Source of the DNA: an uncultured Gammaproteobacteria bacterium
GTDB lineage: Bacteria; Pseudomonadota; Gammaproteobacteria; Pseudomonadales; Pseudohongiellaceae
DNA length: 64,000 nt
Assembly (NCBI GenBank): GCA_913060975.1
Contig: CAJXVC010000005.1
Span: 186,001-250,000 of the forward strand
Direction of reading: 5' to 3'
The notes beneath the pieces were generated by a model. The model was not told the DNA's origin, did not search any database, and saw only the letters and a program-made list of their open reading frames with translations. The stretch's first letter is position 1, and the number at the start of each line of letters is the position of its first letter. Below, in pieces: positions 1 to 42,579 of the stretch. A program made the translations under genes and the position numbers.

Positions 1-368
1 TTGATCGTGGAGAGTCTGTGCATTTTATTGGCACCGATATCACCGAATCCCATGTCATCGGCAGTTGCTCGCTGAGCAATATTATTCGCGGTGTCTTTAT
101 GGCTTGTCACATGGGCTATTCAGTTGCCGAACGTTACGAAGGCCAGGGCTATGCCAGGAAGATTGTCAGCTGTGCTATCGATTATGCGTTCAAGGATCTG
201 AAGCTGCATCGCATCATGGCCAATCACATGCCGCAGAACGATCGTTCAGCCGCGCTACTCAAAAGCCTGGGGTTTAAGCGTGAAGGTTATGCGCAGAGTT
301 ACTTGCTGATCGATGGCCGCTGGGAAGATCACGTGCTTAACTCGCTGATCAATCCCAGACAAAAATAG
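1..368 (+). CDS. GNAT family N-acetyltransferase, RimJ-like (5' truncated by window edge)
   Basis: YEGQGYARKIVSCAIDYAFKDLKLHRIMANHMPQNDRSAALLKSLGFKREGYA is typical of RimJ/RimL acetyltransferase C-termini. Confidence 0.85.
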   Translation, partial: DRGESVHFIGTDITESHVIGSCSLSNIIRGVFMACHMGYSVAERYEGQGYARKIVSCAIDYAFKDLKLHRIMANHMPQNDRSAALLKSLGFKREGYAQSYLLIDGRWEDHVLNSLINPRQK

Positions 369-454: not shown

Positions 455-1135
455 ATGGCCAGCAGCAAATCAGCAAGGAATTCCAACACAACTGACAATA
501 AAAACCCAGGCGACTCCGAAGCTAGCAGGAAGGTCGATGACTATTTGACCAAGCACGCACAATGGCAACACATCTTGCAGCCTGTGCGCGAGTTACTACT
601 TGGTACCGAACTTACCGAGGCAGCGAAGTGGGGTGCGCCAGCCTATTTGCTCGATGGCAAGATCGTTGTGACCCTCGCTGCCTTCAAGCAGCACTGCGCG
701 ATCTGGTTTCATCAGGGTGCGCTACTAAGCGACAAGAGTAACAAGCTGATCAATGCGCAGGAAGGCAAGACCAAGGACATGCGGCATTGGCGCTTTGCAA
801 TCGATGACAAGCCCAATAAACGCTTGATCAAATCCTATGTCAGCGAAGCCATTAAAAATCAGCGCGCTGTAAATAAAGACAAAACAGTCAAAAAAGGCAC
901 AACAGGCAAACCACAAACCAGGAAACTCAGTATTCCGGACGAACTCAATGCGGCATTGAAGAAAGACAAGAAACTGGCTACAGCGTTCAAGGCGTTAACA
1001 CCGGGCCGACAACGAGAGTATGCCGGCCATGTGGCAGATGCCAAGCAAGAGAAAACCCGGCTGTCGCGCACGGTAAAAATTACGCCGATGATTCTGGCTG
1101 GGGTGGGTCTGCACGACAAGTACCGAAACTGTTGA
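455..1135 (+). CDS. YdeI/OmpD-associated family protein (DUF1801-like N-terminal domain)
   Basis: EAAKWGAPAYLLDGKIVVTLAAFKQHCAIWF plus IPDELNAALKKDKKLATAFKALTPGRQREY (YdeI-type C-terminus). Confidence 0.8.
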   Translation: MASSKSARNSNTTDNKNPGDSEASRKVDDYLTKHAQWQHILQPVRELLLGTELTEAAKWGAPAYLLDGKIVVTLAAFKQHCAIWFHQGALLSDKSNKLINAQEGKTKDMRHWRFAIDDKPNKRLIKSYVSEAIKNQRAVNKDKTVKKGTTGKPQTRKLSIPDELNAALKKDKKLATAFKALTPGRQREYAGHVADAKQEKTRLSRTVKITPMILAGVGLHDKYRNC

Positions 1136-1165: not shown

Positions 1166-1837
1166 TTACTCTGAATCGACAGGATTGCTCGCCGAGCTTG
1201 AAGTGACGCCGTCTTCGTGTGATTCACCCGGTTTTAATTCACTCAACACTGAATACGTTGCGCCATGCGGCAAAGTATCCGATCGATACAGGCTCACGTG
1301 CGGCGCAGCAAACTCTCCCCATTCCTGAGCCTCGAATGTCTGCAGTACCTGTGTTACTGAATCCTTCAGTGGTGGCGGGAAGCGGGCGATAGTGACGTGT
1401 GGCACAAAGGCTTTGTCCTCGATGCTAAAGCCCAACAAGCCAAACGCAGTATTGAGTTCTTCAACCAAAGCGGTCAGAGCGGGTTCCTGCTCGATACCAA
1501 CCCAGGCCGAATTCTTGAACACACCAATGCCAGTACAGCGTAGTGTTGGCAGGGTATGTTTACTGATCACTTGTTGGGCCAATTGTTCGATATTGCCCAG
1601 CTGATCTACTTGCACCGTGCCTAAAAATTTTACGGTGACATGCAGATGCTCCGGCGGCGCCAGACGTGGCGGCTTGCCATCATTGGTTCGCAAGGGCTCC
1701 AGCAGTTCATAAACGGGCTTGAGTTGGGCATGCAGCGGGCAGGGCAGGCCAAGAAAGCAGCGCATCTTTGCAGCTTTTTCACTGGCTTTTTGTGCCTGAC
1801 GGGCAGCGCGGCGGCTGGCTTGTTGGGATTTGGACAT
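1166..1837 (-). CDS. thpR: RNA 2',3'-cyclic phosphodiesterase (2H/LigT family)
   Basis: Two HxT motifs (HVTVKFLG, HVTIARF); start MSKSQQ chosen within the longer ORF. Confidence 0.85.
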   Translation of the reverse strand: MSKSQQASRRAARQAQKASEKAAKMRCFLGLPCPLHAQLKPVYELLEPLRTNDGKPPRLAPPEHLHVTVKFLGTVQVDQLGNIEQLAQQVISKHTLPTLRCTGIGVFKNSAWVGIEQEPALTALVEELNTAFGLLGFSIEDKAFVPHVTIARFPPPLKDSVTQVLQTFEAQEWGEFAAPHVSLYRSDTLPHGATYSVLSELKPGESHEDGVTSSSASNPVDSE

Positions 1838-1904: not shown

Positions 1905-2324
1905 TTAACTGACCTTCCTGTATTGATAAATACTGTGGGCATCGATTGTGTTAACCAAATGCCAGCCATTGGATTCATACAGCGCGGCCGTGTCCGTATA
2001 CGCATACAAGCCATACTCTGCATAGCCCTGAGCAGTCAGCTCCACAGCCTTCTTTAACAATGCAGAAGCAACGCCTCTGTGGCGCCGCGACGGTCTGACA
2101 TAAACCGTGTTCACCCACAGGCCGATCACGTTGCTGTCCGGTTTGTTGTGCCAGGTAAACGACAAGCCGCCAACCACTTCATCGTCAACGAATGCCAGAA
2201 CGGGTGGTGGTAGCTTGCTGCCTTCATGCTCACTGTCAAAAGCATCGACAGCGGACCACTGCGCTTCGATCATGGCGCGGAATTCTGTTAACTGATCTGC
2301 TGTGTAATCTGTCGTGATAAGCAT
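1905..2324 (-). CDS. GNAT family N-acetyltransferase
   Basis: VRPSRRHRGVASALLKKAVELTAQG...LYESNGWHLV; start MLITTDY preferred. Confidence 0.8.
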   Translation of the reverse strand: MLITTDYTADQLTEFRAMIEAQWSAVDAFDSEHEGSKLPPPVLAFVDDEVVGGLSFTWHNKPDSNVIGLWVNTVYVRPSRRHRGVASALLKKAVELTAQGYAEYGLYAYTDTAALYESNGWHLVNTIDAHSIYQYRKVS

Positions 2325-2433
2325 GAGTAGACCATAAGAACGCGTGCAGCAATAATGAGACGGTATAAGAGTAAACAATACGAACGCTAGACGATCTCGA
2401 TCTAACCGCGAAACACATCAAACTAAATAAGCG

Positions 2434-3108
2434 TCAGGTCACCCACCCACCGGCCAGCGGCAAGACTTGCCCCACCATGTGCTTGCAGTTCTCGCTCGCA
2501 AGATACGCCGCCAGCTCAGCAGTTTCTTCGGCGGCACCTATTTGCCCGGTAGGGACATTGCGCTTGATGTGATCAATGAACTTGGGATTGGCGAGTATGT
2601 CATCGGGGAAATAGGTATTGTTGTTAATGTAATTCTGACCGATCGCATTCACCTGAATATTGCTGCGCGCCAGTTCCATGCCCACCGCCTTGATAAAGGC
2701 GTTCTGCGCACCACGCGCGGCACAATAGGCCGAACCATTGGGAATGCCGCGCAGTGGCGCGGCGCTGGTGACAGCAATAATCTTGCCTGACTTGAGTTCC
2801 AGCAGTGACGGCGTCACCGCACGAACCAGATACATCAGCGGGTCGACCATCACCGCAAACAGCCGCTGCCAATCCGCGTTGGCAATGTCTTGCACCGGGC
2901 TCAGCGCCGGAGGCTCGGCAAGATTGGCGATGATCACATCGATCGCGCCACCGGCGAGCGTGTCATCCACCAGCCTCTGCACGGCGGCCTCGTCGGACAA
3001 AACGGCAGTAGAGGCAATCACTTCATAGCCAAGCGCAGTGAATTTCGCGTGAATGGCCGGGCCCATGTACTGGTCCGCGCAGGTAATGAGAACTCGAGGG
3101 CTGGGCAT
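2434..3108 (-). CDS. SDR-fold protein with halohydrin dehalogenase signature motifs
   Basis: T-x4-Y-x-G (TCADQYMG) and S-x12-Y-x3-R (SAAPLRGIPNGSAYCAAR); C-terminal AIGQNY...GQVLPLAGGW resembles HheC. Confidence 0.75.
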   Translation of the reverse strand: MPSPRVLITCADQYMGPAIHAKFTALGYEVIASTAVLSDEAAVQRLVDDTLAGGAIDVIIANLAEPPALSPVQDIANADWQRLFAVMVDPLMYLVRAVTPSLLELKSGKIIAVTSAAPLRGIPNGSAYCAARGAQNAFIKAVGMELARSNIQVNAIGQNYINNNTYFPDDILANPKFIDHIKRNVPTGQIGAAEETAELAAYLASENCKHMVGQVLPLAGGWVT

Positions 3109-3317: not shown

Positions 3318-4967
3318 ATGCGTAAGTTGATTGCACGATTGTCGCTGGTAGCCGCAGTGGCTACAGTCGCGGCTCCTTTATATGCACAGGATTCCGATGC
3401 ACTGGCGATTCTGATTCCCGGTAGCGGCGATTATGGCCGCGAGATCTCCACTGACAGCGAAAGGGCGCAAGCCTTCTTCGATCAGGGCCTGCGCATGGCC
3501 TGGAGTTTCTATTTCCCGGAATCCATTGCTTCCTATCAGGAAGCCTCGCGCCTCGACCCCGACAGCCCGATGCCGTACTGGGGTCTGGCCCACGCCGCCG
3601 GCCCTAACCCTAACAGTCGCTATCAGAGCTTGCCCGACGACCCGCAGGGCGCCGGATTGGCCGCTATTCGTCAGGCACTTGAGCTGGCCAATAATGGCAC
3701 AGGCAAAGAGCGCGAAATGATCAACGCCTTGTTCGTACTTTATAACAAAGACGCCATTCCCGATGATCGCGAGCGTGACTTTGCTTACATGGACGCCATG
3801 CGTGACCTGCACAACAAATACCCCAACGACCCGGACATCGCGTCCGTGTTCGCCGAGTCCTACATGAACACCACGCGTTGGGACTACTGGGAACTGGATG
3901 GCACCGCCAAGCCAGGTACCGCTGAAGCCAAAGCGGCGTTGGAAGCGGCCATGACCGCCGAGCACGACCACCCCGGCGCCAACCACCTTTATATCCATTT
4001 GATGGAAGCCTCCTCCGAGCCAGAGCTGGCCATGCCAGCCGCACAAAAACTGGAAGGCAGCGTGCCTATCTCTGGTCACATGGTGCACATGCCGGGCCAC
4101 ATCTATCTGCGCGTAGGCGAATATGAAAAAGCCGTACTGACTAACGAGCGTTCACAGATCGTTGACGATCAGTTCGCCGAAATCTGGGGCGACACCAATT
4201 TCCCCAACATCGGCACCTATGCGCTTTCGCACAAGGTTCACCAACCCCACGCACTGGACTTCGTGCGTTACGCCAACATGTTGCAAGGCAATTACGCTGG
4301 CGCCATCGATGCGGCCGAACGCAATGCCGGGCGTCGTGGCACCAAGACCGTGGCGCATGCCTGGATGATGGACAAGGTGTTTGGCAATTGGGACAAAATC
4401 CACGCCAACAACGCCGCCAATGTCGCCGCTGCTGACAACCCCTACTTGAAAGGTATGTGGAGCTACGTCATGGGTAGCGCCCACGTCGCCCGCGGCCACA
4501 TGGGCCCGGCTGAAGCCGAACTGGAAAACATCCGTACCCAGATCAGCGCTGATGGCGTTGATGATTCCGGTGTCGGCCCGACGCCAGCCTCGCACGTTCT
4601 GAATCTGGCGATGCATGCATTGCTGGGCGAGATCAACGAAGCCAATGGCAATCTCGATGCGGCCATCCTGCACTACGGCCATGCCATTGAGTATTACGAC
4701 AACCTCAACTACACCGAGCCACCGGATTGGTCACAGTCAGTGCGCCTGTACCTGGGTGCCGTGTTGATCGACGCCGGCCGCGCCGAAGAAGCCGAGGCTG
4801 TTTACCGAAAAGATCTGGAATGGAACCAGCAAAACGGCTGGGCCAACTTCGGCCTGTACCAGGCACTGGAAGCCCAGGGCAAAACCCACGAAGCCCAGAT
4901 CGTCTATCGTCAGTTCGAAAGCATGTGGCGCAACGCCGACGTAGAACTGACTCGCTCGAGAATCTAA
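3318..4967 (+). CDS. Secreted tetratricopeptide-repeat protein
   Basis: Signal peptide, TPR-like helices (PYWGLAHAAGPN, GAVLIDAGRAEEAEAVYRKDLEWNQQNGWANFGLYQALEAQGK). Confidence 0.75.
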   Translation: MRKLIARLSLVAAVATVAAPLYAQDSDALAILIPGSGDYGREISTDSERAQAFFDQGLRMAWSFYFPESIASYQEASRLDPDSPMPYWGLAHAAGPNPNSRYQSLPDDPQGAGLAAIRQALELANNGTGKEREMINALFVLYNKDAIPDDRERDFAYMDAMRDLHNKYPNDPDIASVFAESYMNTTRWDYWELDGTAKPGTAEAKAALEAAMTAEHDHPGANHLYIHLMEASSEPELAMPAAQKLEGSVPISGHMVHMPGHIYLRVGEYEKAVLTNERSQIVDDQFAEIWGDTNFPNIGTYALSHKVHQPHALDFVRYANMLQGNYAGAIDAAERNAGRRGTKTVAHAWMMDKVFGNWDKIHANNAANVAAADNPYLKGMWSYVMGSAHVARGHMGPAEAELENIRTQISADGVDDSGVGPTPASHVLNLAMHALLGEINEANGNLDAAILHYGHAIEYYDNLNYTEPPDWSQSVRLYLGAVLIDAGRAEEAEAVYRKDLEWNQQNGWANFGLYQALEAQGKTHEAQIVYRQFESMWRNADVELTRSRI

Positions 4968-5143: not shown

Positions 5144-5220
5144 CGGAGTGTAGCTCAGCCTGGTAGAGCACTGCCTTCGGGAGGCAGGGGCCGGAGGTTC
5201 GAATCCTCTCACTCCGACCA
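5144..5220 (+). tRNA. tRNA-Pro (anticodon CGG)
   Basis: Cloverleaf: acceptor CGGAGTG/CACTCCG, anticodon arm CTGCC-TTCGGGA-GGCAG, T-loop GGTTCGAATCC, encoded CCA. Confidence 0.95.
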
Positions 5221-17349: not shown

Positions 17350-18531
17350 TTGGAATGGACATTTGAGAGTGGTGGAAGCATGAAAAAATCTCAGCTTTTT
17401 ACAGCATTTCTACTGTGTTCCAATCTGCTCTATCTGTACGCAGATTCGGGCGATTCCAAAACCATTGAAACTGGTCCGGTCGGTCAAGAAAGCGATGATT
17501 GGATCATGCCTCGTACCGAGTATGGTCAGCCAGACTTTCAGGGTACATGGCATTTCGGTTCACGTACGCCGATGCAAAGGCCAAGAGACCTGGGGAACAG
17601 ACAAAGTTATAGCCTGGACGAAGTAAGAGAGCTGGAGGCGGGCATGCGCGGCCGGTTGGATCAACTGGCAGCTGATGTAGACCCGGATCGTGGCGCACCG
17701 GAGGCAGGCGCCGTGATCAGGCAAGAAGCAGATGACAATTTCCTCGCCCACTATCTGGAACCCATCATAGTCCCTGTAGACGGCGAGTACCGCACGTCGG
17801 TTATCGTCGATCCGGAAAATGGCAAGTTGCCGTTGCGAGCGGGGTTTCGGGATTATAATGCCCGAGTTAGAGCATCGGGCTTAGGCGAAGCAGATGGGCC
17901 GGAGGGCCAACCTTTGAATGGTCGTTGCATCATGTTTGGTGCGGCTGTGCCTTCGCTTACACCCATTATGATGAATCCCAATCTAACGATTGTGCAGAAC
18001 AAAGACTATGTCGTGATTACGACAGAGATGGTTCATGACGCGCGTATCATTCCCCTCAACAAAACACACCGGGAAGTTGCTGTCCCGCGCTGGATGGGAG
18101 AGTCGGTGGCGCGTTGGGAAGGCGATACATTGGTTGTTCATACCAGGCATTTTCGACCGGAACAATCACATCCTATGTTTATAGCGATGTCTGACGAATT
18201 TGAATTACTCGAACGCTATCGCTTAACCAGCGACAATACGATTCGTTATGAGTTCACCGCTACAGACGACAAAGCCTACACCCAGCCGGTGACGGGAGTG
18301 CGGACTATCACTCGCAACAGGCCGAACGAACAGGTCTATGAATTTGCCTGTCACGAAGGCAATTACTCCATGGCAAGTATACTCCGTGGGGCAAGGACTC
18401 AAGAGCTTGAAGCGGAACTAAAAATGCTGTCTGATGATCTATCAGAAGATCACGGGGCTGAACAAGAAACCGAAATGATGCCTGAAAATCACCATGAAGG
18501 TCACCACGACGAAGTAGAGAGAATTTACTGA
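17350..18531 (+). CDS. Secreted uncharacterised protein (EMxHDAR/WEGDTLV/CHEGNY family, copy 1)
   Basis: EYGQPDFQGTWHF, EMVHDARIIP, RWEGDTLVVHT, YEFACHEGNYSMASILRGAR; signal peptide after MKKSQLF. Confidence 0.75.
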   Translation: MEWTFESGGSMKKSQLFTAFLLCSNLLYLYADSGDSKTIETGPVGQESDDWIMPRTEYGQPDFQGTWHFGSRTPMQRPRDLGNRQSYSLDEVRELEAGMRGRLDQLAADVDPDRGAPEAGAVIRQEADDNFLAHYLEPIIVPVDGEYRTSVIVDPENGKLPLRAGFRDYNARVRASGLGEADGPEGQPLNGRCIMFGAAVPSLTPIMMNPNLTIVQNKDYVVITTEMVHDARIIPLNKTHREVAVPRWMGESVARWEGDTLVVHTRHFRPEQSHPMFIAMSDEFELLERYRLTSDNTIRYEFTATDDKAYTQPVTGVRTITRNRPNEQVYEFACHEGNYSMASILRGARTQELEAELKMLSDDLSEDHGAEQETEMMPENHHEGHHDEVERIY

Positions 18532-30349: not shown

Positions 30350-31414
30350 CTATTCCCACTCGCTGGCCGGCGTATTCGGGTCAGAGCGCAGGAAGCGCAT
30401 TAGATCGGCATGGAACTGATCGGGAATCTCGATCTGGGGCGCGTGGCCAATGCCTGGGTAGAGCAGGATGGCACTGTTTTGCAATTCGCTGGCAACGTGG
30501 CGCGCATGGGAAGGGAAGTCAGCAATCAAGCCATCTTCTTCACCAGCCAGAACCAGTGCTTTACTGGTAATGTGTTGCCAGTCATACACGACTGGATCGT
30601 TGTACAACATTTGACCCTGCAGGCGACGTACCATGGCCAGACGCGGCCATTCGCCACTCATGGTTTGCCCAAACTGGCGACGGACGAACTCCAGATGCGC
30701 GGGTGGCCATTCATCCGGGAAGTAACGACGGTGACCACGCAGAATGGACTGATAAGTAGAAACGCCTAGTTCGTTGGCATAAGGGTCTGTCCACGGACGA
30801 CCCTGACGCTGGTCTTCCAAACCAATTTGATTAACCAGCACAACATGCGTGGTAATGTCGGGATACAACATGGCGAAACGGCTCACCACCATGCCACCCA
30901 TTGAATGACCGACGATAGCGACTTCATCAATGCCGAGCTCATCAAGCAGCGCTTTCATGTTCGCGGCGACGAAGTTGAACTGGTAAGGAATGACAGGTTT
31001 CGATGATTTGCCGTAGCCAATGCGGTCTACTGCGATGACACGAAAACCATTGTCAGCCAGTACTTTGAGTGTTGGCGTATAGGCTTCGGAATAAAAGTTC
31101 ATGCCGTGCTGCCAAAAGACGGTTTGGCCGTTAGGAGTCCCATTGGGCGGGATATCCATATAGGCGTATCGCATGTCTTCGCCGAAACGGTTCAGTTCCA
31201 GATACTGCACGGGATAAGGATAGGGGATCTCTTCGAAATTGGCGGAAACAGGGCCCCAATCGGCAGGGGCTTCAGCTGGCGGTTCAGCTGGCCAGTCCAT
31301 ATCGGCGGCTTGCAGAGCCAAAGACCCAAAAGTCAGCGAAAGCGCCATGATGGCAGCGCCAGCGCGTTTAACGGAAGTGACCTTAAAAAAAGCCCGCTTA
31401 ACTGAGTGCAACAT
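30350..31414 (-). CDS. Alpha/beta hydrolase, secreted
   Basis: GHSMGG nucleophile elbow, VFWQHGMNFYSEA, LVLAGEEDGLIAD, GHAPQIE. Confidence 0.9.
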   Translation of the reverse strand: MLHSVKRAFFKVTSVKRAGAAIMALSLTFGSLALQAADMDWPAEPPAEAPADWGPVSANFEEIPYPYPVQYLELNRFGEDMRYAYMDIPPNGTPNGQTVFWQHGMNFYSEAYTPTLKVLADNGFRVIAVDRIGYGKSSKPVIPYQFNFVAANMKALLDELGIDEVAIVGHSMGGMVVSRFAMLYPDITTHVVLVNQIGLEDQRQGRPWTDPYANELGVSTYQSILRGHRRYFPDEWPPAHLEFVRRQFGQTMSGEWPRLAMVRRLQGQMLYNDPVVYDWQHITSKALVLAGEEDGLIADFPSHARHVASELQNSAILLYPGIGHAPQIEIPDQFHADLMRFLRSDPNTPASEWE

Positions 31415-31702
31415 ACTCGGTATACCTTGGTTGTAGATTTTATTAATGGAATTCCAGCGGTGGAGTATTTCAGATTGCGCCCAGTGAATCAAAGCCACTA
31501 GTCGCTACAGAGTGTAAATCGTCCGGGCTTGCGCCAATCCTGGTGCGATAAACCACCTCAGGCCGCGTACCTTGGCAGCTTCAGGCCATTTGGAGTGCCA
31601 TCTCGTAAAGCGAGCATTGCATCGGTTTTTGTGTAAATCTAGCCAATTGACAGCAATGTCGACCAGCAACGGGCTCTCAATAACGAACTTTCAGGAACGA
31701 CT

Positions 31703-38016: not shown

Positions 38017-39039
38017 TCAAGGATTGGCCCCGGCTTCTCTGGCCATGCGTTCCTCGGCGCGGTGTCCGCGCAAGATGTTTTCCATACCGTAGTTACCTTC
38101 ATGACAGGCATATTCGTAAATCTCACTGTCAGTATGATCGAAGATTATCTCTCGGGTATAGGGCGCAGTGAACTGACCGGGATCATACGATGTCAGTTGA
38201 TACTGGATGGCATCGTCCGAGACCCGGGTAATGCGCTCGACATTACGTTTCTCAACCGTGCGTGGCGCTGTGTCACTGGGCTCGGAATAATTAGTCGTTT
38301 CGATCACCAGCGTATCGCCTTCCCACCAGCCGCGTGAATCGCCATGCCAAAGTTTGACCTTGCTATCCAGATGCGGTTTTTCGCCGATCGGAATAACCCG
38401 GGCATCGTGCGCCATCTCCTGATAGATCACGACTGTATCTTTGGACTGCACGATCTGCCAATAGCTGTTGTACCCGGAGCCCAGACGTGGCGCGCCAAAA
38501 GACAGACAGCGCTCGCCGAGTGGACGATCGGTCCAGGAATCAGCAGGGTGGGCTTCGCGGTGTTCCTGCAGTTGTCGCGCGGCGGCAATAGCAGCTTCAG
38601 TGCGCGGCGGGAACTGGCCATTGGGCGGATCAATAATTTGTGAGGTGCGGCGGTGGATGGTGCGTTCCGCCATCCACTGTGAATCGTAGTTACCGGTGGA
38701 TGGATCGTAGGATTGAATCTCACCACTGAAAGCGGCTTCCAGAACGCCACCACCAAACAGAGCGTCTTCGCCAGCGGCATAAATCTCTTCAAGACGTTGT
38801 TCCAAAAAGACAACGTCTTCATCGGTCAAAAATTGCTTGTCGCCGAAGACAGCAGGCCGCTCGACCGGGGTGATGGTGTTGTTTTCCCACACGCCTTGCA
38901 GATCTGCGGTGCCATCGATTGTTTTCGGGGGGACGTAATCCGGATCGAATTGCGCAGCCAGTTGGCTGGAGGCCAATAAAAATGCGGCAGTCAGGGCAAC
39001 TGCGGATAACTTTCGGGGTAGTGCTAACGAACGGGGCAT
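38017..39039 (-). CDS. Secreted uncharacterised protein (EMxHDAR/WEGDTLV/CHEGNY family, copy 2)
   Basis: ADLQGVWENNTITPVERP, EMAHDARVIP, WWEGDTLVIET, YEYACHEGNYGMENILRGHR. Confidence 0.78.
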   Translation of the reverse strand: MPRSLALPRKLSAVALTAAFLLASSQLAAQFDPDYVPPKTIDGTADLQGVWENNTITPVERPAVFGDKQFLTDEDVVFLEQRLEEIYAAGEDALFGGGVLEAAFSGEIQSYDPSTGNYDSQWMAERTIHRRTSQIIDPPNGQFPPRTEAAIAAARQLQEHREAHPADSWTDRPLGERCLSFGAPRLGSGYNSYWQIVQSKDTVVIYQEMAHDARVIPIGEKPHLDSKVKLWHGDSRGWWEGDTLVIETTNYSEPSDTAPRTVEKRNVERITRVSDDAIQYQLTSYDPGQFTAPYTREIIFDHTDSEIYEYACHEGNYGMENILRGHRAEERMAREAGANP

Positions 39040-41508: not shown

Positions 41509-42579
41509 ATGACTAATACTTTTAACGTTAGTCACACATCTCGAACACCGGAGCGAACAATGAAATCTACAAGCTCTCTGCTAATTTGCTTGTCCACGGC
41601 TTTTATCGGCCATTTTTCGGTTTCTGCACAAGAATATCAGGCGCCACAAAATGAGTGGGGTCAGCCTGACCTGCAAGGAGTATGGAATTTTTCCTCGGAT
41701 GTGCCTATGCAACGCCCCGAGCGCTTTGGAACTCGCCAGTTCTTGACCGCTGAGGAAATCGCCGAAATTGAAGCCGCGCGAGCTGCTCGTGATGCCTCGA
41801 CAGATGCGGCGCTGGCTACCGGTGGCGTAGACGAATCCTATAATGATTTCTGGGTCGAAAATGCGGGTATCGGCGATACCGTCCGCACCTCGCACCTCGT
41901 CTACCCGGAGAATGGCCGATTGCCACCGCTCGTTGAAGGCGCAATTGTCAGTCAAGGTGTTTACGGTGGTGGTACTACCGGAGAGTCACGGCCAGTGCGG
42001 ATTGGTGCTGGTGGTATCGGCACGGATGGACCGGAAGATCGCGGCTTATCCGAGCGCTGTCTGGTCGGATTCAATGCTGGCCCGCCTTTCACCCCTAGCC
42101 TGTACAACAACAATGTGCAGATTTTTCAGTCTCGCGATACTGCCGTTATTCTGACGGAAATGATTCATGATGCCCGTATCGTGCCAATTCATGATTCGCG
42201 CGATGACTTGCCGCCATTGGATGAGAACATCGGTATGTATACCGGCGATTCAGATGGCTACTGGGATGGCGATACTCTGGTTGTCGTAACTCGCAACTTC
42301 AATGGCCTGGCGGCCAGTTTCGGCTCCTCTGGTACCTCCGCCGAGAAAGTCCTGACCGAACGTTTTACCCGGGTCGGTTATGACACGGTCAACTACGAAT
42401 TCACGGTGGATGATCCGGCTACTTATACCGACAAGTTCACCGGCATTGTTCCCATGACCAAGGTCGATGGATTGCTGTATGAATACGCCTGTCATGAAGG
42501 TAACTATGGCATGGTCAATATTCTGCGTGGTGCCCGCGCTGAAGAGCGTCGCGCTGCTGAAGGTGAGCAGGAAAACTAG
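41509..42579 (+). CDS. Secreted uncharacterised protein (EMxHDAR/WEGDTLV/CHEGNY family, copy 3)
   Basis: EWGQPDLQGVWNFSSDVPMQRPERFG, EMIHDARIVP, YWDGDTLVVVT, YEYACHEGNYGMVNILRGAR. Confidence 0.78.
   Translation: MTNTFNVSHTSRTPERTMKSTSSLLICLSTAFIGHFSVSAQEYQAPQNEWGQPDLQGVWNFSSDVPMQRPERFGTRQFLTAEEIAEIEAARAARDASTDAALATGGVDESYNDFWVENAGIGDTVRTSHLVYPENGRLPPLVEGAIVSQGVYGGGTTGESRPVRIGAGGIGTDGPEDRGLSERCLVGFNAGPPFTPSLYNNNVQIFQSRDTAVILTEMIHDARIVPIHDSRDDLPPLDENIGMYTGDSDGYWDGDTLVVVTRNFNGLAASFGSSGTSAEKVLTERFTRVGYDTVNYEFTVDDPATYTDKFTGIVPMTKVDGLLYEYACHEGNYGMVNILRGARAEERRAAEGEQEN

Follow-up and report, generated by a model that had tools for sequence, protein, structure and literature searches.

A very probable cofactor-independent halohydrin dehalogenase from a gammaproteobacterial genus, with a predicted selenoprotein and CoA genes beside its relatives

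Halohydrin dehalogenases (HHDHs), which interconvert halogenated alcohols and epoxides, are prized biocatalysts, the first of which came from strains enriched on industrial haloalcohols, and to our knowledge their natural function is largely unknown. At the position of the HHDH pocket loop, SDRs usually have a PG motif that contacts the nicotinamide. Two motifs, T-x4-F/Y-x-G and S-x12-Y-x3-R, define the family (PMC4989007, PMC11976700). Only two of the HHDH genes then known were found in an operon with an epoxide hydrolase, and room was left for other physiological functions (PMC4989007).

The protein considered here is encoded in the window, by which we mean the whole 64,000-nucleotide stretch of DNA that was analysed (Table 1). 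When PDB sequences were searched with phmmer, 8xxb, 7b73, HheB, 6a41, HheA and HheC were found in this order, all before any SDR or dehydrogenase. The first two, a mutant of HheD8 with chloride (8xxb) and HheD2 (7b73; PMC9629495), share with the window protein both motifs, an SDR fold without a cofactor site, a similar length and a TYFP loop, with pairwise identities of 47% and 43% and TM scores of 0.92 and 0.91, respectively. However, they fall with HheB in a separate clade, have Phe rather than Tyr as the aromatic residue of motif 1, and lack three extra residues that the window protein has near positions 49–51. HheB (4zd6) is also alike in motifs, fold (TM 0.92) and loss of the cofactor, but is 37% identical according to Foldseek and groups with the D types and not with the window clade. 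HheC (1pwx), HheA2 (1zmo) and 6a41 have the same catalytic Ser-Tyr-Arg and a pocket loop of the form AIGxN(Y/F), though at 25–32% identity (Foldseek) and in a separate A/C clade, and HheC has a C-terminal extension that the window protein lacks. Classical NAD(P)-dependent SDRs of the FabG type resemble it in the Rossmann-like fold and the active-site Ser and Tyr, whereas their TGxxxGxG cofactor motif, the catalytic Lys of Y-x3-K and the PG motif are all absent from its sequence.

Table 1. Positions of the features discussed, in the window unless a related locus or genome is named
Feature	Position	Strand	Basis or remarks
Second GNAT-like protein, shared far flank, near window edge	18..368	+	63–78% identical orthologue in L122, L045, L016, L018
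DUF1801/OmdA protein, shared far flank	455..1135	+	Pfam; 50–53% identical orthologue in L043, L122, L020
LigT/2'-5' RNA ligase-like protein, shared far flank	1166..1837	-	Pfam; 36–40% identical orthologue beyond the CoA block in relatives
GNAT acetyltransferase, directly downstream of HHDH, at the place of the relatives' CoA block	1905..2378	-	Pfam; unmatched in all seven syntenic loci compared
Halohydrin dehalogenase-type SDR-fold protein, 224 aa	2434..3108	-	Open reading frame, HHDH motifs, PDB sequence matches HheD8/HheD2, tree, AlphaFold pLDDT 92.6
Loop I156-G-Q-N-Y-I161, putative nucleophile-pocket loop, aligned with HheC AIGPNYL	2626..2643	-	Alignments; role from HheC literature
HHDH motif 2, S115-x12-Y128-x3-R132, predicted catalytic Ser-Tyr-Arg	2713..2766	-	Translation; invariant in 45/45 aligned sequences
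HHDH motif 1, T9-CADQ-Y14-M-G16, predicted nucleophile/halide pocket replacing the SDR glycine-rich cofactor motif	3061..3084	-	Translation; kept in relatives; definition PMC4989007, PMC11976700
TPR-repeat protein, likely signal peptide, divergent from HHDH	3318..4967	+	Pfam TPR; 72–79% identical orthologues beside HHDH in relatives
tRNA-Pro (CGG), just past the TPR gene	5144-5220	+	
Family III CoA-transferase, related to 2-methylfumaryl-CoA isomerase	L027:905-2098	-	Orthologues in 24/24 other congeners
DsbA-like (PF01323) predicted selenoprotein, UPWC site	L016:5375-5998	+	51 other occurrences in related loci
Degenerate selenoprotein gene beside intact HHDH	L015:5598-5912	+	Related contig
Degenerate selenoprotein gene beside intact HHDH	G010:C185:20977-21426		Congener

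Motifs, tree and predicted fold

The sequence-only reading had given the coordinates of the open reading frame exactly and left its strand unstated; it is the minus strand, the plus-strand reading being ruled out by the stops that it contains. Both motifs that had been pointed out are present in the translation. Residues 9–16 are TCADQYMG, matching T-x4-Y-x-G where an SDR would have GxxxGxG, and residues 115–132 are SAAPLRGIPNGSAYCAAR, that is S115-AAPLRGIPNGSA-Y128-CAA-R132, with Arg in place of the SDR Lys. The claim that these two motifs define HHDHs agrees with PMC4989007 and PMC11976700. The likeness to the C-terminal part of HheC (AIGxNY...GQVxxLAGG) that had been proposed is real, and the HheC sequence used agrees with PDB 1pwx from end to end. 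The loop after the catalytic helix, AIGQNYI, resembles AIGPNYL of HheC, and the pocket residues match those of HHDHs in the alignment. Neither motif is found in any of the four distinct paralogous SDRs scored from the window genome, three of which have S-x12-Y-x3-K instead of motif 2.

An alignment of the protein with 44 relatives shows that the motifs did not arise by chance. Residues G16, S115, Y128 and R132 are invariant in all 45 sequences, as are I156, Q158 and N159; position 9 is Thr in 43 and Ser in two, and position 14 is Tyr in 44 and Phe in one. Motif 2 was part of neither of the two patterns used for retrieval, so its conservation is no artefact of the search; motif 1 was partly included in one of them. 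The two sequences with Ser (L022 and L026) are natural variants in which motif 1 reads S-C-A/V-D-R-Y-M-G. The window subclade adds HHDHs with Tyr in motif 1, and in HheC the substitution F12Y raised the specific activity up to 5-fold (PMC11976700). The description of the HHDHs as a small enzyme family no longer holds, since one scan over contigs of genomes yielded 470 relatives, of which 80 were kept.

A maximum-likelihood tree of 45 proteins, including HHDHs and the SDRs of the window genome itself, separates all HHDHs, the window protein among them, from these SDRs at 100/98, and thus places it outside the classical SDRs. The large clade to which it belongs is sister to HheB plus HheD, in a tree that has few reference HHDHs, none of them of the F or G type, and in which HheA, HheC and several SDRs sit on long branches. 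The AlphaFold model (a monomer, from the alignment of 45 sequences) has a pLDDT of 92.6 and a pTM of 0.90, and matches HHDH crystal structures best: Foldseek ranks 1–21 are all HHDH or dehalogenase structures, ahead of ordinary SDRs, with chloride-bound HheD8 at the top (TM 0.92). Together with the absence of an intact glycine-rich cofactor motif, the tree and the predicted fold uphold the HHDH interpretation first made from the sequence.

The protein also matches Pfam adh_short_C2 with 108 bits and many NCBIfam SDR models, none of which reaches its cut-off, so an automatic annotation would likely call it 'SDR family oxidoreductase', as had been expected. These matches and the SDR fold are what one would cite if the protein were seen as an ordinary SDR, dependent on NAD(P), that came to look like an HHDH by drift. 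We rejected this as highly improbable on motifs, tree and fold, given that the glycine-rich cofactor motif and PG are missing, Arg replaces Lys in 45 of 45 sequences, and both the tree and the fold go with the HHDHs. The protein is very probably a cofactor-independent HHDH of the B/D/(E) branch, and as such a newly identified member of an enzyme family already known. Subtype D was rejected as an assignment from identity alone (43–47%) because the tree sets the window clade outside HheB plus HheD. Subtype E is possible; E-type HHDHs are presumably to be expected from marine gammaproteobacteria and at a position near B/D, which we take as a lead only. What speaks against the HHDH reading is that at 43–47% identity to the characterised enzymes the substrate, and even the reaction, can shift.

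By homology to the enzymes described in PMC4989007, Ser115 and Tyr128 would hold the hydroxyl of a vicinal halohydrin. Tyr128, its pKa lowered by Arg132, would take the proton, and the alkoxide would then displace the neighbouring halide to give the epoxide. The released halide would sit in a pocket made by T9, Y14, G16 and the 156–161 loop, where an SDR would hold its nicotinamide; in reverse, an anion in this pocket (halide, azide, cyanide or nitrite) would open an epoxide. One epoxide hydrolase of the EHN type (142 bits) is encoded in the window genome, which also gives a weak match of the limonene-EH kind; neither is linked to the HHDH gene, and no linked epoxide hydrolase was seen. An alpha/beta hydrolase at 30350-31498 was rejected as a candidate, being generic and 27 kb away. 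A route through HHDH and an epoxide hydrolase is therefore possible, though not indicated by linkage, and in the window lineage the epoxide may drain through an unlinked enzyme of this kind.

Gene neighbourhood in related loci

The HHDH was found in 17 of 25 genomes of the window genus, its own included (E < 1e-40; several genomes are incomplete), with an orthologue present in 16 of the 24 other congeners. It is rare outside the genus: among 368 genomes sampled elsewhere in the class, the lineage was seen in four (E < 1e-45). In relatives a recurrent gene order is seen: a TPR gene on the opposite strand, a DsbA-like gene, the HHDH gene and then a block of CoA genes, again on the opposite strand. 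This conserved neighbourhood is apparently undescribed so far. With the lineage retained in roughly two thirds of the genomes sampled within this genus, and with a predicted selenoprotein and CoA genes around it, the neighbourhood offers a first, testable handle on a native role and may surprise specialists.

The DsbA-like gene might be taken for a truncated open reading frame, an option we dropped: reading upstream reveals a TGA, in frame, where the first Cys of CxxC would be, and the frame was therefore reinterpreted as a selenoprotein gene. In all 52 occurrences the TGA takes the place of the first residue of the CPWC active site. The ten codons that follow are nearly fixed, even at synonymous sites, and later codons vary. 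The fold of this stretch is a short stem-loop whose loop contains GU, the form expected of a bacterial SECIS, for which it is a candidate. Most simply, the gene would encode a selenoprotein with a UPWC site. The window genome has a tRNA-Sec match over the family cut-off, though the selenoprotein gene is missing there. A cluster of opposite-strand open reading frames overlapping the selenoprotein gene was taken as an artefact of gene picking. Among predicted selenoproteins, a UxxC-containing 'DsbA-like protein form 1' has been listed before (PMC13188914), and our literature search did not find selenoproteins and halohydrin dehalogenase mentioned together.

Of 50 measured cases, 39 have the HHDH start at most 100 bp from the selenoprotein stop, and in 22 the start is at or before that stop. 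The selenoprotein gene is present in all 16 congeners with an HHDH, the window genome aside, with 15 intact copies and one that is degenerate, and in four of the eight congeners in which no HHDH was detected. Given the incomplete state of several genomes and the non-independence of close relatives, this co-occurrence is suggestive and does not amount to a test.

By Pfam, the CoA block runs from a family III CoA-transferase through, in many cases, an AMP-ligase to a MaoC hydratase and an acyl-CoA dehydrogenase. Against TIGR04253, the model for 2-methylfumaryl-CoA isomerase, the CoA-transferase reaches 572 bits, below the cut-off of 725, and is thus to be seen as a relative and not a proven member. 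Taken with the hydratase and the dehydrogenase, it possibly represents a mesaconyl-CoA-type pathway. A general acyl-CoA context for the HHDH branch is unsupported, as no family recurred when 60 neighbours, taken from 15 loci that lack the genus-type locus, were scanned with Pfam; the selenoprotein/CoA linkage is limited to the window genus and its close kin.

Neighbours of this sort are unlike the classical haloalcohol pathway, which, like the missing link to an epoxide hydrolase, counts against the HHDH reading. A possible alternative, about which we are doubtful, is that the protein has HHDH chemistry in vitro, but in nature carries out a related step, likewise without a cofactor, on a different substrate. 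This would be an epoxide or leaving-group reaction with, for instance, an epoxy- or halo-acid, the CoA thioester of such an acid, or a thiol adduct. In that case its halide chemistry would be incidental, with the DsbA-like selenoprotein oxidoreductase and the CoA genes as the ancestral partners. This alternative draws on the closely spaced, co-directional neighbour with its constant TGA, on the adjacent genes for the isomerase-like CoA-transferase, hydratase, dehydrogenase and AMP-ligase, and on the room that PMC4989007 leaves for other functions, with its mere two epoxide hydrolase operons. However, the neighbourhood does not recur outside the genus-type locus, the window genome keeps the HHDH without any of the three partners searched for, and four congeners have the selenoprotein without a detected HHDH. 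In addition, the CoA-transferase is found in all 24 other congeners and is thus independent of the HHDH, and plain vertical inheritance could explain much of the synteny.

In relatives the HHDH gene follows that of the predicted selenocysteine DsbA-like protein and lies beside CoA-thioester genes, so that ancestrally the enzyme may have provided a step by which an organic acid, or its halo or epoxy derivative, was catabolised or detoxified. We tentatively suggest, as a view that could well prove wrong, that this HHDH lineage has a native metabolic function in marine gammaproteobacteria of the Pseudohongiella-like kind, and that an ancestral operon couples it to the selenocysteine DsbA-like oxidoreductase, next to a CoA pathway that includes an enzyme like 2-methylfumaryl-CoA isomerase. 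The role of the HHDH would be an unrecognised epoxide or halo-acid step, not the breakdown of man-made haloalcohols, and the window genome would be a natural experiment in which the pathway was deleted and the HHDH alone retained.

The window locus

Neither the selenoprotein gene nor the CoA-transferase gene, the latter present in every other congener, was found in the window genome, and a search there for the MaoC gene, run without a positive control, found nothing. The simplest reading of the gene order is that the partner genes were lost in the window lineage, with the HHDH and both outer flanks being kept. Such loci do erode, as seen from the degenerate selenoprotein copies in a congener (G010) and a related contig (L015). 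One might then ask whether the HHDH is itself a relic, heading for loss after deletion of the operon, for which one could also point to its comparatively long terminal branch (0.5). We consider this improbable: the open reading frame is intact, the catalytic and pocket residues are all kept and the fold is predicted with confidence. Only three of 66 near-invariant columns are changed, none of them catalytic, which is unlike a decaying gene.

Elsewhere in the window, three proteins (17350-18531, plus strand; 38017-39039, minus strand; 41509-42579, plus strand), none with a Pfam match, look by eye like paralogues of one another, with D-Q-G-W and YE-ACHEGNY in common.
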